Source: a virus
IMG/VR virus record: IMGVR_UViG_3300029448_000172
Coordinates: 1 to 21,188 of that record
DNA: 21,188 nt
Strand: one strand, 5' to 3'
In this document: in pieces, positions 3,724 to 21,188 of the stretch
Layout: the number at the start of each line of letters is the position of its first letter
How positions within the stretch are numbered: the stretch's first letter is position 1
The notes under the pieces: generated by a model
What the model was told of the DNA's origin: nothing
The model's database searches: none
Seen by the model: only the letters and a program-made list of their open reading frames with translations
Made by a program: the position numbers and the translations under genes

Positions 3724-5256
3724 TTATAGTCTAGTGCGAATATCAAAGATATTCCATTTCTTTCTTATAGTCTTTTTTGGAGCTTTTGTAAAGACATCAA
3801 AGTCAGTTTTAGCTTGAACTACTTTTGCTGGATGAATTGATTTAGTAATGTTCTTACCTTCTCCTGCTCCTAACATTAAATATTGTAGTGCATCATGTAT
3901 GTGAGAGTAATGGTTTTTGTCTGGTTTATCTGTATATCTCTCACCTGATACTTGCATTCTCTTATACTGATACCCACCTTCAAAACCTTTTATTAAATGT
4001 TTACATCTTTTATCTATTAATACCCCTGATTTACCTTCTACTAATCTACTTAATGGAGCATTTACAGACTCTATACGTAACGATACATCATTGGATGGTG
4101 CTGGAATAGCACGAATACCAGCACCTCGAAGTATTTGAAATGGTGTTGATTCATCAGTTTGTGCCCTGTAATCTCCTGCAGGGTCACCATAAATTCTTGC
4201 TACTGGAATATTATGAAACTTTGATTGCATTTCTTGTCGTAACAATTCACCAAATCTAACCATGCCCATATCTTGTGCTACTATTTCATGTAGTATAATC
4301 CACCGACCTCTTACTTGTTGTGCAAATACACAAGCAGGTGTAAGACCAAAGTCTATACCTACATAGTAAGGAACTTCTGCTGGGATGATTGGTTCTCTTG
4401 CTACATGAATGTCTGATGAAAATTGTTTATATACTGGTTTACCATCTTCAATAGAACCTAACCTATTCATTACATATACATCAATCCAAGATTTTGTTTT
4501 ACCTCTAATAATAGAAGGATAATAATCTTGCACAAGATTCATTTTGTTTTCTGCTGATTGATTTATTTCATAATTTTCTACTTCTTGATTATTATTTTTT
4601 TTCTCTACCATACCAGCAGGTTGTGTAAAAAATTTCCAGTTATCTGGTTTAACTAACATTAAAACTTCTTCTCTTGATAAGTGTTCAGGTGGTGGAGCAT
4701 CTCCACTCATAACACTCCACCAATGATCTTCATCTGGTGCGTTGGTATCTGCAATCACACCATACCAAGTTGGTCCACCATCTTTCATAGAAGGGTATCT
4801 ACCTACACGCATAGTACCTGCATCTATAATTGGCTTTGCTATTTCTCTACTTTCATTAAAAAAAAGAAAGGTTAATTCTAAAGATAATAATTTTTTAACA
4901 TCTTCTGGTCTATCCAAAGCTAGAAAGATAACTTCTAAATCTATATCACCTACTTTAATTCTGTGTGTGTATGGTGGTGACCAATTCATTTTACCAAATT
5001 CTTTTTCAGGAAACCAATCAAGCCATGTCTTCATAGTTGTGGTACGTAACTGAGGATTGGTATTTCTTATAATAGCTACTCTACTTTTACGTATACCATC
5101 TGGAGATTTTTTTTGTGCTAAGGCTCTACGAAATACTTCTATACAACAAGCAACAGATTTACCTGAACCAACTGGTCCACGTATACCACGAAAGAAACTA
5201 TTGTCTTTCATAAAATTTTTTAGGATGTCACCATCTGGTTTATATTTAAAGTTCAA
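3724..5256 (-). CDS. Terminase large subunit
   Basis: 510 residues. It is the ATPase-nuclease motor that packages DNA through the portal. Walker A is GPVGSGKS at residues 27-34, and a Walker B-like LTFLFFNE lies at 128-135 with Asn-Glu in place of Asp-Glu, as in related podoviral enzymes. The C-terminal RNase H-like nuclease domain has VGIDFG (Asp302), YGDPAGD (Asp358) and HIHDALQYL (Asp455), fitting the three acidic metal ligands. Translation appears to begin with TTG at 5256, overlapping the previous stop as TTGA. The Walker A site lies so near the start that little can be trimmed. Direct neighbours are head assembly genes. Confidence 0.93.
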   Translation of the reverse strand: MNFKYKPDGDILKNFMKDNSFFRGIRGPVGSGKSVACCIEVFRRALAQKKSPDGIRKSRVAIIRNTNPQLRTTTMKTWLDWFPEKEFGKMNWSPPYTHRIKVGDIDLEVIFLALDRPEDVKKLLSLELTFLFFNESREIAKPIIDAGTMRVGRYPSMKDGGPTWYGVIADTNAPDEDHWWSVMSGDAPPPEHLSREEVLMLVKPDNWKFFTQPAGMVEKKNNNQEVENYEINQSAENKMNLVQDYYPSIIRGKTKSWIDVYVMNRLGSIEDGKPVYKQFSSDIHVAREPIIPAEVPYYVGIDFGLTPACVFAQQVRGRWIILHEIVAQDMGMVRFGELLRQEMQSKFHNIPVARIYGDPAGDYRAQTDESTPFQILRGAGIRAIPAPSNDVSLRIESVNAPLSRLVEGKSGVLIDKRCKHLIKGFEGGYQYKRMQVSGERYTDKPDKNHYSHIHDALQYLMLGAGEGKNITKSIHPAKVVQAKTDFDVFTKAPKKTIRKKWNIFDIRTRL

Positions 5257-6869: not shown

Positions 6870-7247
6870 TCAGGATAGGTCTATGTTCACTTGGATCGCA
6901 TTAGTCAACTGGGTTCCGTTGGTAGTATCATCCCTCATACCTACCCTATCTAGTATATCCTTCGAAGCTTCTAGTCTAACATACTCCGAGTTAGCATTTG
7001 CTGATAGATTGGACACAGTATGTAATGCTGTTATTGCTTTAACACCTAGAACCTTCTTGGAACGCAGGTGAAGTTCCTGCAAAACCTTATCGTTCTTGAG
7101 TAAGCGACATGCTTCAACTTTGGCTGATCGAACCGAGTAACCAGCATCTATAGCACATTGTTTTGCAGAATCTGAACCTGCTAACAAGTTATCAATAAAT
7201 CTGGACTGCCTTTGCGTTAAGTTGGTATGTTGTTTTGTAATTGACAT
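6870..7247 (-). CDS. Terminase small subunit
   Basis: 125 residues. The N-terminal half reads LTQRQSRFIDNLLAGSDSAKQCAIDAGYSVRSAKVEACRLLKNDKV, the typical DNA-binding helix-turn-helix region of the Terminase_2 family (LT.KQ..F...Y......A...AGYS...A...A..LL.N..V). It would recognise the packaging site and load the large subunit. It is the first gene of the leftward head operon, directly behind a good minus-strand promoter. The predicted transcript start lies only some 7 bases before the ATG and no Shine-Dalgarno is visible, so the mRNA may be almost leaderless. It is separated from the large subunit by about 1.6 kb of small genes. Confidence 0.85.
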   Translation of the reverse strand: MSITKQHTNLTQRQSRFIDNLLAGSDSAKQCAIDAGYSVRSAKVEACRLLKNDKVLQELHLRSKKVLGVKAITALHTVSNLSANANSEYVRLEASKDILDRVGMRDDTTNGTQLTNAIQVNIDLS

Positions 7248-7260
7248 GAGGACTTGTTAT

Positions 7261-7288
7261 ATAGTAAAGGCATACATAACTGTGTCAA
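7261..7288 (-). promoter_or_regulatory. Sigma-70-like promoter for the leftward head operon
   Basis: On the minus strand a perfect TTGACA (7283-7288) is followed after 16 bases by TACTAT (7261-7266). Transcription would start near 7254, just before the terminase small-subunit ATG at 7247. TTGACA also occurs on the plus strand at 7298-7303, forming an inverted pair TGTCAA-9-TTGACA, but no matching plus-strand -10 box is visible. Confidence 0.65.
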
Positions 7289-7439
7289 GTAAATAATTTG
7301 ACAGCTCCGTAGGTCGTTCTCAGAGCCGGTTCTGGACTCAAGTTACTAGGAAGTGACATGGACAAGAAGGTAATCCTGAACCGATTTATACTGCAGTGAT
7401 TCGCTATTTCTGGATTTTATATTGGTTTGTCATATAGAG

Positions 7440-7631
7440 TTTAGACTCCGATAGGTTGTTATATGTCAAAAAAATGTTGCGATGCAACTAACATATATGG
7501 ATTGGTACCATCCCTATTAGTCTAGGGTGCGACCCCTGTCGCCCCACCATAGGTGGCTTCGCCCTAGACTTACCAATCCATATATGTTACCACCTTGTGG
7601 ATTTTTTCAACATATAACAAAGGAGTCTAAA
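7440..7631 (+). ncRNA. Large structured leader element covering a ribosome site
   Basis: Nested complementary arms. P0 is TTTAGACTCC (7440-7449) with 7622-7631. P1 is 7456-7475 with 7601-7620 (18 of 20 pairs). P2 is a hairpin at 7476-7488 (GTTGC/GCAAC). P3 is 7489-7507 with 7571-7589 (19 perfect pairs). P3b is 7519-7527 with 7562-7570 (9 pairs). P4 is 7529-7542 (GCGAC/GTCGC), P5 is 7544-7556 (CCACC/GGTGG) and P6 is 7590-7600 (CCAC/GTGG). P1, P2, P3 and P6 meet with no unpaired base. P0 includes the GGAG Shine-Dalgarno of the gene at 7632. About 150 of 192 bases pair. That the element is transcribed as RNA is inference. Confidence 0.7.
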
Positions 7632-8159
7632 ATGACAAACGCAAAAAAATCACACGAAATAGCAAAACACTTTGATAAATCGGTACAGGATTATCTTGAA
7701 CAGATGAAGTTACTTGCTAAAAACATAGTGGAGTTGAGTCCAGAACCTAAAGAGAACGAGGAGCAGGGTATGTACTTAGTTGACTCAGTTATGTATGGCT
7801 TATTCAAGTACAAACAAGACACGTTGAAAGCTTACAATTTCTTTGACGAAAAGAGAGTTGCACTTAACGCAAAGGAAGACCAGATGAAAGAAGATAGTGA
7901 ATCATTAGGTACACAAACAGGAGTTGTCGATTACGACATTAAGGATCAAGCACAGCATTATGAGAATCTTTGTAGTGACATTAAATTAAGAGCAGATAAA
8001 GTACATAGATTGATATCTTTCCTTAATGAAGTAATCTCCGTACCAGCAATGGAAAGAGTATACACTAATGAAGATTATGAAAAAAGCAAAGCAGATAGAA
8101 TAAAATTTGCAAATACAAGAAGAAGAAACAGTTATCAAAGAAAGACATTGTCTTCATAA
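7632..8159 (+). CDS. First early gene, unknown helical protein
   Basis: 175 residues from the ATG at 7632, which has AAAGGAG 7 bases upstream. A longer reading from a GTG at 7527 runs through the structured leader and gives an unprotein-like N-terminus, so it is rejected. The product is charged and almost entirely helical, with no membrane segment: SHEIAKHFDKSVQDYLEQMK, then a long helix NFFDEKRVALNAKEDQMKED, and an Arg-rich end RRRNSYQRK. I recognise no family. As the first rightward gene, with its own terminator, it is probably an abundant early or regulatory product. Its ribosome site can be hidden by the upstream structure. Confidence 0.75.
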   Translation: MTNAKKSHEIAKHFDKSVQDYLEQMKLLAKNIVELSPEPKENEEQGMYLVDSVMYGLFKYKQDTLKAYNFFDEKRVALNAKEDQMKEDSESLGTQTGVVDYDIKDQAQHYENLCSDIKLRADKVHRLISFLNEVISVPAMERVYTNEDYEKSKADRIKFANTRRRNSYQRKTLSS

Positions 8160-8170
8160 CCTTCACAAGA

Positions 8171-8204
8171 AAGTGCCTAGTCGAAAGACTAGGTGCTTTT
8201 TTTT
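8171..8204 (+). terminator. Rho-independent terminator after the first early gene
   Basis: GTGCCTAGTC (8173-8182), a GAAA tetraloop, and GACTAGGTGC (8187-8196) form a 10-bp stem with two G-T pairs, extended by AA/TT, followed by eight T (8197-8204). It isolates the first early gene as a single transcription unit. Confidence 0.9.
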
Positions 8205-8333
8205 ATATCACTTATTGGGCAGAGCTTCGCTCTGTCTATAAGTACCCAGACAGACCCAAGTCTGTCGGTAAGAGCATAGGGTGGTTGATACAGAGGTGAC
8301 AGCCACACAACAATTTTATGAAAGGAGATTGTT
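8205..8333 (+). promoter_or_regulatory. Structured leader of the second early unit
   Basis: A 129-base gap with consecutive hairpins. ACTTAT (8210-8215) pairs with ATAAGT (8238-8243), enclosing CAGAGC-TTC-GCTCTG (8220-8234). TACC (8243-8246) pairs with GGTA (8267-8270), enclosing GACAGAC-CCAA-GTCTGTC (8249-8266). GTGG/CCAC lie at 8281-8284/8303-8306. AACAAT (8309-8314) pairs with ATTGTT (8328-8333), placing the AAGGAG ribosome site of the next gene in the loop. No T-run follows any of these hairpins. A promoter for the downstream genes is not evident. Confidence 0.5.
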
Positions 8334-8815: not shown

Positions 8816-9148
8816 ATGTATACATTTTTAGAACAGCTTGACCAAGAGGGTAGAAAAAACTTTTTGGCTGACCACAACTTGAGATTTATTATGGACTACA
8901 ATCAAGACATAATACGTATGGCTTGTGCTTATGTAAAGTTTCGCATACACAAACAAAGAATAAACTTTGATTCTAATGTAGCAGACAGAGCAGGTATACT
9001 TGATTGGATCTGTAACAAATCTTATGAAGCAATGGATGAGTTGCGACCAAGAATAAGAAGACGAGATATGAATAAGTTATTGTTGGGTACGAGAACAATA
9101 GAAGATACTTATCGTAAACACTATATTGATAAGAAGGAGGAACTATGA
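8816..9148 (+). CDS. Unknown early protein
   Basis: 110 residues behind GGAGGT. It is mixed helical, with FLEQLDQEGRKNFLADHN at the start, a central AGILDWICNKSYEAMDELRPR and a basic RRRDMNKLLLG segment. I see no known motif or membrane segment. Its stop overlaps the ATG of the ArdC-like gene (ATGA-type), so the two are translated together, which hints at a shared function in early takeover of the cell. Confidence 0.7.
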   Translation: MYTFLEQLDQEGRKNFLADHNLRFIMDYNQDIIRMACAYVKFRIHKQRINFDSNVADRAGILDWICNKSYEAMDELRPRIRRRDMNKLLLGTRTIEDTYRKHYIDKKEEL

Positions 9149-10035
9149 ACTTAAATGAACTAGGACAAAAGAACTTAGATGAAATAGTAGAATCTATCGC
9201 AACTGATATGGAGAACCATGACGTAACCAAACCTTATGAACCAAGATGGGTAACTAAATTACATGGTAACATATTAGGTTACAAGTATACTGGCTTCAAT
9301 CAATTCCATTTGAACATGAAGTATGGTGACAGTACACCACTATGGGGAACTTACTTCCAGTACAACAAGTTAGGTTTACATCCAAGAAAAGGTACTGGCA
9401 AACCATTATGGCAACCAACTATACGGAAACAAAAAGATAAAAAGACTGGTGAAGAAAAAGTTATTCCTGGATTTAAAACCATAGCTATCTTTAACATTGA
9501 TGAAGTAGATGGTGATGGTGAAGTAATATACAATCTCAAAGACCAGTACTTACCTAAGACAAAGTATGCTAAGAATACAAACTATACTGAGATAGATAAT
9601 TGGATAGATAAACTTGATGCAACAATAGAACATGGCAGTAACATGGCTTGTTATATTCCAACATCAGATAAAATAAAGATGCCAATGTTTGATTCATTTA
9701 CAACAAGAGAGCATTACTATGCTACCTTGTTTCATGAGATAACACATTGGACAGGGCATAACAGTAGATGCAACAGAAAACTATCTGGTAAATATGGTGC
9801 ATCAGAGTATGCTTTCGAGGAACTTATAGCTGAACTTGGAGCAAGTTTCCATATGGCTAGTTGGAATTTATTTCACACTACCAGAATGGATCACGTACAC
9901 TACTTGAAGTCATGGGCTAAGGCTCTTAGAGATAAGCCAGACTCTCTACGTAAAGCTTGTAAGTATGCTAGTGAATCGTACTTCTACCTCCAACACGATT
10001 CACTAGGCAGTTTTGATAACGCAGTTAATAACTAA
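9145..10035 (+). CDS. ArdC-like antirestriction protein with zincin metallopeptidase domain
   Basis: 296 residues. The first 130 or so match the ArdC-type N-terminal ssDNA-binding domain (GYKYTGFNQFHLN, then WGTYFQYNKLGLHPRKGTG). The C-terminal half is a zincin peptidase with HEITH at residues 197-201 and a downstream FEELIAELGASF helix whose Glu is the likely third zinc ligand. This pairing is found in plasmid ArdC proteins, which protect incoming DNA against restriction, and in many phages. Early expression fits such a role. That it blocks restriction in this phage is inferred from family; the protease target is unknown in general. Confidence 0.85.
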   Translation: MNLNELGQKNLDEIVESIATDMENHDVTKPYEPRWVTKLHGNILGYKYTGFNQFHLNMKYGDSTPLWGTYFQYNKLGLHPRKGTGKPLWQPTIRKQKDKKTGEEKVIPGFKTIAIFNIDEVDGDGEVIYNLKDQYLPKTKYAKNTNYTEIDNWIDKLDATIEHGSNMACYIPTSDKIKMPMFDSFTTREHYYATLFHEITHWTGHNSRCNRKLSGKYGASEYAFEELIAELGASFHMASWNLFHTTRMDHVHYLKSWAKALRDKPDSLRKACKYASESYFYLQHDSLGSFDNAVNN

Positions 10036-19261: not shown

Positions 19262-21188
19262 TTACATTATACTTAAAGCACCATTGCCACTAATTGTCAA
19301 GACTGTACTACCACCACTTACAGTAATTGGTCCAAACAAAACACTATTCTTTGTATTAGCAGTAACTACACTAGCATTAGAACTTACTGTATTGTAGTTA
19401 CTAAACACATTACCAACAGTACTAATCTCACTTGCTTGTATTGTACTTAATGATAAAGTACCTGAGCCATCTGTAGTTAGTGCTTGACCTGCAGTACCAT
19501 CAGCAACTGGATAACTTAATCCATCTAGTACTACTTTACCTGAACCGTTAGGAGTAATGGCTATGTTACCATTACTTGTAGATACAATAGAATTTCCGTT
19601 AACATCAAGCGAACCTCCAAGTTGGGGAGTTCCATCCTGAACTATATCTGTTAAAGAACCTGCAACTATAGTTACCCAAGCAGATCCATTATAATATTTT
19701 AATACATTTGCTGTACTATTGTATGCTAAATCTCCTTCATCTAATGATGCAGTAGGATCACTACTACCTACTCTGTATCTTTGTGCAAAACTATTTACTT
19801 CTCCTATATTACTAGCAACCACATTAATGTTAGAAGTTTCTACTGTAATAACATTACCCATGCCATTACCATGTGTAGTACAATAATACTTTAATGAAGA
19901 TGGTGCATCCGAAGGAACAACAAATGTAGTCTTTGCTCCAGCACTTCCCGGAGTTCCTGATGCTGTTACACCTGTCGTATAACTTGCATCTGCACTTGTT
20001 CTAAATGCTATTGGATGTGAACTATTACTAGAATCACTTTGGTCAAACACATATGTGTTACCTCTTATTAATGTAATAGCTGGATTACCTGTACCATCTA
20101 AATAAAATACATTACCAGAACCACCACCATATAATGTTCCACTTGCTACTGTAACTGCATAGTTTGTAGTAGATGCAAGAGCATTTACAAGTGAAGTAAC
20201 ATCAGAACTAATACCAGCTAGTGTTGTGATGTTTGCACTAATACCAGCAAGAGTTGTTATATTAGAATTTTGCCCAGCTAATGTTGTTATATTGCTGTTG
20301 TTTCCTGCTACTGTAGTAACATTACTAGCTATACCAGCTACAGTAGTTATGTTACTAGCTATTCCTGCTACTGTACCAATATTGCTATTAGCACCAGCAA
20401 CAGTTGCTATGTTACCTACTACACCTGATGCACCTAATGTTGCCATATTCGTTACATTTGCTGAAGTAGCTAGTAGATTTAAGTCTGTTACTATATCACT
20501 TGTAGCTAATTGATTTAGATCTGAAACTATGTCAGACGTAGCTAATGTATTTAGGTCGCTAACTATATCAGATGTTGCTAATGTATTTAAGTCTGTAACA
20601 ATATCTGAAGTAGCTAATGTATTAATATCATTTATTACATCTGTGACTGCTAATGTATTTAAGTCACTTACAAAATCAGAAGTTATCAAACTTGCTTTAG
20701 CGGCAACGGAAGTTATTTCAGAAGATTTACCTGCTACTGTAGTAATATTACTTGAAATTCCTGCAACAGTAGTTACGTTACTTGCTATACCACTTACAGT
20801 AGTTACATTTGCAGATATACCTGCTATTGTTGTAACATCTGTTGCACTTATAGTAGTTGCTACATTACCACTACCATCAAATGTTAAAACTTTACTTGCT
20901 CTAGTTGCTGATACTGGTAAAGTAAGTGTGGCACTTGCATCATCATCAGATAGTCTTATTGACCTTGCTATCTCATCTTCTCTTTCACCCATCATAGCAA
21001 CCATTTTGTCTAAATCTGTATTTAAACTTTCAATAACAAACGGTCCTGATGAAGGAAAATCTGTTGTTCTTGCTACTGGAATATCTCTTACTATAGTTAT
21101 AATGTCACCAGCAGATGCACCACTACCACCTAATACAACATTACCACCACCTGTTACTCCTGCACCTGTAACTGAATATTGTGTTGCT
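19262..21188 (-). CDS. T7-type tail fibre protein (N-terminus beyond window edge)
   Basis: At least 641 residues in this window; the frame is open to the right edge, so the Met at 21004 is internal. The first visible part, GDIITIVRDIPVARTTDF followed by FVIESLNTDLDKMVAM and AR-IRL, is the end of the T7 gp17-like N-terminal domain that joins the fibre to the tail. A long repeat region follows: 10-residue NITTVAGI.S units and 12-residue TSDIVSDLNTLA units. After it (20110-19850) comes a cupredoxin-like domain with all four type-1 copper ligand residues, then a DGTPQLGGSLDVNG module and a C-terminal beta region. It would recognise the host surface. Confidence 0.85.
   Translation of the reverse strand, partial: ATQYSVTGAGVTGGGNVVLGGSGASAGDIITIVRDIPVARTTDFPSSGPFVIESLNTDLDKMVAMMGEREDEIARSIRLSDDDASATLTLPVSATRASKVLTFDGSGNVATTISATDVTTIAGISANVTTVSGIASNVTTVAGISSNITTVAGKSSEITSVAAKASLITSDFVSDLNTLAVTDVINDINTLATSDIVTDLNTLATSDIVSDLNTLATSDIVSDLNQLATSDIVTDLNLLATSANVTNMATLGASGVVGNIATVAGANSNIGTVAGIASNITTVAGIASNVTTVAGNNSNITTLAGQNSNITTLAGISANITTLAGISSDVTSLVNALASTTNYAVTVASGTLYGGGSGNVFYLDGTGNPAITLIRGNTYVFDQSDSSNSSHPIAFRTSADASYTTGVTASGTPGSAGAKTTFVVPSDAPSSLKYYCTTHGNGMGNVITVETSNINVVASNIGEVNSFAQRYRVGSSDPTASLDEGDLAYNSTANVLKYYNGSAWVTIVAGSLTDIVQDGTPQLGGSLDVNGNSIVSTSNGNIAITPNGSGKVVLDGLSYPVADGTAGQALTTDGSGTLSLSTIQASEISTVGNVFSNYNTVSSNASVVTANTKNSVLFGPITVSGGSTVLTISGNGALSIM
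20467..20695 (-). repeat. 36-base tandem repeats within the tail fibre
   Basis: About six degenerate 36-base units coding the 12-residue unit TSDIV(T/S)DLN(T/Q/L)LA. The amino acids are better conserved than the bases. Flanking them, at about 20200-20400 and 20720-20840, lie 30-base units coding N(I/V)TT(V/L)AG.(A/S)S. Confidence 0.8.

Follow-up and report, generated by a model that had tools for sequence, protein, structure and literature searches.

Concatemers of phage T7 have hairpin ends, and in eukaryotes there are long inverted-repeat hairpin genes, including young plant MIR genes and hpRNA loci; we know of no RNA interference in a phage setting. In phage T4, the genes e, soc, 49 and I-TevI carry inhibitory RNA helices at their ribosome sites (PMC3014915). 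Staphylococcal phages produce cabRNA, a structured, RNase III-sensitive RNA of ~400 nt that derives from the terminase genes, within terS-terL, and serves as an activator of the CBASS cyclase (PMC10686824). Template switching is known to make and mend hairpins (PMC8794818).

Here, we describe a giant quasi-palindrome between the small terminase gene terS and the first early gene, gene1, in a family of marine phages, and compare it with these systems. As in T4 gene e, the upstream arm can pair with the Shine-Dalgarno region in a longer transcript, and the predicted plus-strand fold of the window, the 21,188-nt stretch of DNA analysed here, shows this pairing. However, the T4 stems are short, belong to the mRNA of the gene itself and have a late promoter within the arm, whereas the arms here are 70–700 nt long and include coding sequence, and selection appears to act family-wide on the opposite strand. 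The resemblance to cabRNA is that of a structured RNA at phage terminase genes, an RNA that we infer from sequence in the present case; cabRNA is not an inverted duplication, whereas the present element lies upstream of terS and across an unrelated gene. Like the T7 concatemer ends, it would place a hairpin near the terminase or packaging region, where fold-back synthesis would renew an inverted repeat, but the repeat here is much larger and more degenerate and the genomes assemble as circles. As at MIR and hpRNA loci, the hairpin would arise from an inverted copy of a neighbouring protein gene; unlike those loci, it belongs to a phage, and the copy undergoes renewal and adjoins, in cis, the gene from which it derives. 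RNA stems maintained by template switching (PMC8794818) likewise undergo concerted changes of several bases, by which a single event re-establishes pairing, a process that explains the renewal of pairing, but not the one-strand wobble or the site.

The window covers the greater part of a marine phage genome, in which a late operon headed by terS and terL lies on the minus strand and an early operon on the plus strand. Specifically, terS (6870–7247, minus strand) is identified by a match to the Terminase_2 profile (E 2.5e-10), and terL occupies 3724–5256 in the minus-strand late operon; among named phages, Pelagibacter phage EXVC031P Hodr has the closest terL, at 64%. The contig ends share a common 98-base repeat, as expected for a circular assembly. 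The early operon encodes an exonuclease, the annealing protein Erf, SSB, and an ArdC-like anti-restriction protein with a zincin metallopeptidase domain (9145–10035, plus strand). The late protein encoded at 19262–21187 (minus strand) contains many short repeats of the types TLATSDIVSDLN and ITTVAGIASNVT and is probably a tail fibre stalk.

Gene1 (7632–8159, plus strand) encodes a protein of 175 aa that is predicted to be all-helical (mean pLDDT 75). Comparison found no known family, fold or solved relative for the product, and gene1 was not found in bacterial genomes. The gene evolves fast, the window's gene1 showing 6–14% pairwise identity to distant members, but most gene1 proteins share an ITGxxW-like C-terminal motif, and gene1 is apparently one protein family across the relatives; its starts were assigned from the Shine-Dalgarno and length. 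An intrinsic terminator follows at 8176–8205 (plus strand; CCTAGTC-GAAA-GACTAGG and TTTTTTTT), the stem of which is listed by the scan for the minus strand too. Two more compact hairpins, GGCAGAGCTTCGCTCTGTC and AGACAGACCCAAGTCTGTC, are found after this terminator, at 8208–8290.

On the terS side, a sigma-70-like promoter for terS (7261–7288, minus strand; TTGACA-16-TACTAT as scanned) is situated at the outer end of the left arm, and close relatives retain its TTGACA block together with the TATAG-like box downstream of it. An inverted block, TGTCAA-N9-TTGACA (TGTCAAGTAAATAATTTGACA; 7283–7304), is conserved beside terS in L005, L006, L084–L086 and L141–L144; one of its halves is the −35 element of the terS promoter, and the block may be an operator. 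In a second terS group (L222, L230, L244, L250, L257 and L299), a purine tract, GGGGGGAGAGAGGGAGAGGGGGG, is positioned ~20 bases after TTGACA and before terS, and is a possible packaging or transcript-start signal. Pyrimidine 10-mers complementary to this tract occur in ~20 of 57 clusters.

The sequence-only reading of this DNA had proposed that positions 7440–7631 form a multi-junction fold hiding the ribosome site of gene1, and its description of the fold is borne out. Folding of 7440–7631 recovers all of the described helices with a minimum free energy of −85.9 kcal/mol, compared with a mean of −39.5 for 200 dinucleotide shuffles (z −12.5), none of which is as stable. In particular, an outer stem, TTTAGACTCC/GGAGTCTAAA, pairs 7440–7449 with 7622–7631 and encloses the gene1 Shine-Dalgarno GGAG (7622–7625). 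A second stem pairs 7456–7475 with 7601–7620 at 18 of 20 positions, with an A-run (7468–7474) in its 5′ side and a T-run (7602–7607) in its 3′ side, while a third stem pairs 7489–7507 with 7571–7589 at all 19 positions. The four-way junction without an unpaired base, with its small hairpins abutting, is likewise reproduced. The apical domain (7508–7570) is composed of an inner stem, AGTCTAGGG/CCCTAGACT, and two small hairpins; it is common to L086 and L087, and the apex differs in L084 and L085.

Compensatory changes, by which the fold was to be judged, were sought in a leader alignment with four relatives (L084–L087; L083/L001 is a near-identical copy of the window), and the helices covary, the Shine-Dalgarno-bearing stem included. 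Both-sided changes are present at 18 of 75 pairs, a number reached by none of 500 shuffles (shuffled mean 8.7), and 88.5% of cells are paired, versus 79.9% in shuffles and 36–47% with slid partners. In the five phages, pairing of the outer stem is complete (100%), with three of nine pairs covarying, and eight of the 19 pairs of the 19-bp stem have changed on both sides. The fold stability, the covariation, and the pairing of the outer stem in all five phages establish that the 192-nt structure is real and conserved. The leader has no match in Rfam at gathering or relaxed thresholds, and its sole blastn match among named phages is to a terminator in T5-like phages. The remark that no described phage RNA has such a layout holds against Rfam and against a limited search of the open-access literature, which returned no counterpart and no paper that deals with Hodr or with long inverted repeats beside terS.

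Two small hairpins of the fold are terminator-like. On the minus strand, GTTGC-ATC-GCAAC (7476–7488) is followed by ATTTTTTT and was detected as intrinsic-terminator-like in the scan of the window; judged by eye, a hairpin with a T-run is found at this site (7470–7488 in the window) in L084–L087 as well. On the plus strand, CCAC-CTT-GTGG followed by ATTTTTT (7590–7607) stands immediately before the gene1 Shine-Dalgarno and is also present in L084–L087 by reading of the aligned sequences, though absent from the scan listing. The pair has the layout of a bidirectional intrinsic terminator, with a GC hairpin and a T-run on each strand, directed outward, at mirror positions of the palindrome. Because it is confined to the subclade of the window and L084–L087, the bidirectional terminator is not the general feature of the family.

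Self-alignment places the 192-nt fold at the centre, or tip, of a much longer quasi-palindrome between terS and gene1. Pairing runs past 7440 and 7631 for ~170 further bases each way, into the gene1 coding sequence, and 7267–7507 is 67% identical to the reverse complement of 7571–7801 (E 1e-16). The right arm (7571–7801), which on the minus strand is antisense gene1, spans the gene1 5′UTR, Shine-Dalgarno, start codon and first ~170 bases. Since the right side past 7631 is gene1 coding sequence, the left arm (7267–7507, minus strand) is a degenerate copy, noncoding and in reverse complement, of gene1's leader and 5′ coding part; its outer end is ~20 bases away from the start codon of terS and overlaps that gene's promoter. 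A second self-alignment suggests possible outer extensions on the minus strand, 7201–7222 inside the terS coding region matching 7862–7883 inside gene1 at 20 of 22 positions (E 3e-5). The 591-nt region folds to −235.6 kcal/mol on the minus strand and −234.8 kcal/mol on the plus strand (z about −17 and −16), and is the sole large inverted repeat in the window's 34.8-kb genome, G000 (score 192 versus 43 for the next region). The limits of the palindrome depend on the local alignment; Smith-Waterman was used throughout, because a BLAST self-comparison misses the repeat of Hodr, which Smith-Waterman finds.

A quasi-palindrome is present at the same site in terS-containing contigs, whatever the gene1 sequence. 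Of the 104 terS loci in which 700 bases or more lie upstream of terS, 57 reach a score of at least 60, whereas 224 two-kb windows of relatives have a median of 29 and a 95th percentile of 52, with a background that tops out near 52; the top-scoring two-kb windows are the loci with the terS palindrome, and in roughly half of the terS loci the repeat is weak or none rises above background. In the isolate Hodr, the repeat at the locus scores 292 and spans −116 to 577 relative to terS, and it is the sole large inverted repeat in the genome (score 242 versus 41 for the next region). The arms reach ~500–700 nt in L046, L022, L244, L257, L298, L307 and L151/L301. The right arm spans the whole of gene1 in seven lineages, in five of which it stops at the gene1 terminator. 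The longest and most perfect palindrome, in L151/L301 (141–1514 upstream of terS), contains 553 Watson-Crick pairs, ~88% of the aligned pairs, and is possibly a recently renewed copy. Many long palindromes (L244, L046, L257, L292, L298 and L250) have a common type of apex stem, GTTCGCAA...TTGCGAAC, after which TGCAAGC frequently comes next. The idea of two functional genes in inverted orientation was also considered and is not supported, the left arms of the loci checked having no long minus-strand ORF.

The strand on which pairing is kept was read from the ratio of A.C to G.T mismatches between the arms, a test that is unbiased because the aligner scores the two alike. Across 29 clusters, 482 mismatches are G.U on the terS-sense (minus) strand and 124 are A.C on that strand, giving a terS-sense G.U share of 0.795 (bootstrap 0.737–0.843); 25 clusters lean to the terS-sense strand, 2 lean the opposite way and 2 are ties, with p-values that are nominal since the clusters are related phages. 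A DNA cruciform, which the sequence-only reading had offered as an alternative, would use both strands equally and does not predict these counts. Isolated mismatches, with two Watson-Crick pairs on each side, rank on the terS-sense strand in the order expected from helix stability (G.U 190 versus A.C 27, U.U 43 versus A.A 18, and G.G 20 versus C.C 9), and one-sided differences between near relatives have the same strand direction (66 versus 16). The bias is present at all three gene1 codon positions (325 versus 44 in all), on which ground coding constraint was rejected as its source, and is weaker in the noncoding part (100 versus 55). Where the bias is strong, the minus-strand fold is the more stable one (L046, −650 versus −491; L022, −582 versus −485). 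For the four phages of the window's own subclade, the counts stand at 36 versus 26, a bias that is not significant, and the two strands have folds of equal quality.

Among singletons, the family-wide strand bias is absent, with 15 versus 22 in the left arm and 26 versus 33 at terS and terL third positions (small numbers), indicating that the strand asymmetry is not mutational. In the family, selection appears to act on intrastrand pairing of the terS-sense strand, the 36 versus 26 of the window's subclade standing apart. Watson-Crick pairing at the Shine-Dalgarno and ATG (0.80–0.84) is barely above that along the rest of the gene1 arm (~0.7–0.8), hence occlusion of the ribosome site seems not to be the trait selected family-wide. 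What the family conserves is a hairpin formed by the terS-sense strand, probably as RNA antisense to gene1 and possibly as single-stranded DNA.

Comparison between relatives shows that the arms evolve in concert. Counted over columns paired in both relatives compared, 138 of 163 double changes lead from one Watson-Crick pair to another, with transitions and transversions about equal; compensatory evolution via G.U intermediates would favour transitions. Some of the double changes come in runs of 2–4 adjacent pairs, and such adjacent multi-base concerted changes fit template switching. In one cluster, third-position divergence is 0.058 inside the arm versus 0.138 outside, a difference to which an N-terminal effect may contribute.

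The explanation that we favour, tentatively and at a little under an even chance, is an RNA hairpin in the terS direction: a giant quasi-palindrome holding an antisense gene1 copy, with pairing selected on the minus strand and renewed by template switching or fold-back. A terS-direction transcript crossing gene1 antisense would loop at the palindrome centre and fold back onto the gene1-like left arm, forming a double-stranded hairpin of 0.4–1.4 kb. RNA is preferred as the molecule for two reasons: tolerating G.U base by base is characteristic of RNA, and single-stranded DNA would have to be exposed over a kilobase, which is much to ask. The hairpin would lock the antisense-gene1 sequence away from gene1 mRNA and would offer an RNase III-type substrate just before terS; this sealing or RNase III role is guesswork, prompted by those long palindromes that end at the gene1 terminator. 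terS would be transcribed from a promoter of its own, situated at the left arm's outer end or beyond it, and terS mRNA from the promoter seen there in the window would not carry the hairpin. Template switching or fold-back synthesis, with one arm serving as the source of the other, would account for part of the renewal of complementarity.

As far as the aligned genomes go, the RNA hairpin is favoured by the unique site, the concerted change, the strand bias, the minus-strand stability, the unbiased singletons, the third positions of the arm, and the terminator-bounded arms. Its chief weakness is that no minus-strand promoter is visible upstream of the right arm, none that is convincing having emerged from scans of the window and of 18 of 27 loci. 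The near-balanced mismatches and equal folds of the window's subclade and the weak or absent repeat at about half of the terS loci also count against it, as does the similar mismatch pattern that single-stranded DNA of the same strand would leave.

Such single-stranded DNA, during packaging or replication, is the main rival, unlikely in our estimate yet a real prospect. The terS-sense strand, exposed beside a packaging cut or a DNA end in the vicinity of terS, or serving as replication-fork template, would fold back; the hairpin would cap or prime the end or mark a concatemer junction, and fold-back synthesis would copy gene1 into the left arm. It predicts the same strand bias and needs no promoter, and it suits a palindrome that is unique per genome, adjoins terS and has RecE/Cas4-like nuclease, Erf and SSB genes nearby. 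An end left of the palindrome, with 5′-3′ resection, would expose exactly the minus strand, and the concerted multi-base changes fit fold-back copying (compare template switching, PMC8794818). That G000 and Hodr assemble as circles cut elsewhere, with no indication of a fixed end here, is a weak argument against it. In addition, DNA tolerates G.T less well than RNA does G.U, so RNA accounts more readily for the bias of 10-fold or more that some lineages show. The possibility that replication template switching keeps making and correcting the quasi-palindrome without selection, as a functionless by-product, relies on a known mechanism (PMC8794818) and on the adjacent multi-base concerted changes, but it leaves unexplained the one-strand order of mismatch tolerance, the lower third-position divergence in the arm, and the persistence at one site across many lineages, and is very improbable. 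We give still less credence to a mutation bias in which deamination of the exposed minus strand (A>G and C>T in the left arm) mimics wobble: these are indeed the main mismatch classes on that strand, but the singletons, unbiased inside and outside the arm, largely refute it, small as their counts are, and deamination would not produce the excess of U.U over A.A or that of G.G over C.C.

The cis-acting leader that the sequence-only reading had inferred is partly supported at best. In its current form, a gene1-mRNA leader would mask the Shine-Dalgarno as happens in T4 gene e, and the 7590–7607 hairpin might bring about attenuation; this is possible for the window's subclade, though we consider it quite unlikely. 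The conserved, covarying fold that pairs the gene1 ribosome site is upheld: the fold is strong, the Shine-Dalgarno stem covaries in the subclade, the hairpin and T-run before the Shine-Dalgarno are conserved in L084–L087, and T4 genes e, soc, 49 and I-TevI provide precedents (PMC3014915). The 192-nt unit and the strand are not upheld. The element is the centre of a quasi-palindrome that takes in gene1 coding sequence, up to all of gene1 in relatives, and pairing continues at the same level far beyond the start codon. Selection for pairing on the mRNA strand, the hallmark of T4 gene e, is not what the family displays: the mismatch pattern of the 29 lineages favours the opposite, terS-sense strand, with the subclade at 36 versus 26. 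Both arms would also have to lie in one gene1 mRNA, and no convincing plus-strand sigma-70 promoter was found upstream of or in the left arm, in scans of the window and of 18 of 27 loci.

We know of no counterpart, and found none in the literature searched, to a noncoding gene copy that is kept complementary on one strand across widely diverged phages, including a cultured Pelagibacter phage. The RNA hairpin may amount to a self-masking antisense hairpin of a new kind among phage elements, in which a noncoding inverted copy of an early gene makes terS-direction transcripts fold into long double-stranded RNA, and the copy tracks a fast-evolving gene by recurrent template switching together with base-by-base selection on one strand; we hold this wider proposal to be doubtful, though by no means far-fetched. 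If the molecule is single-stranded DNA, the finding bears on genome-end processing or protection in these phages. In the case of RNA, abundant phages of the ocean would be producing double-stranded RNA on a kilobase scale, with a bearing on RNase III, antisense control and RNA-sensing defences. The palindrome provides a natural test of how template switching and selection jointly maintain long hairpins.
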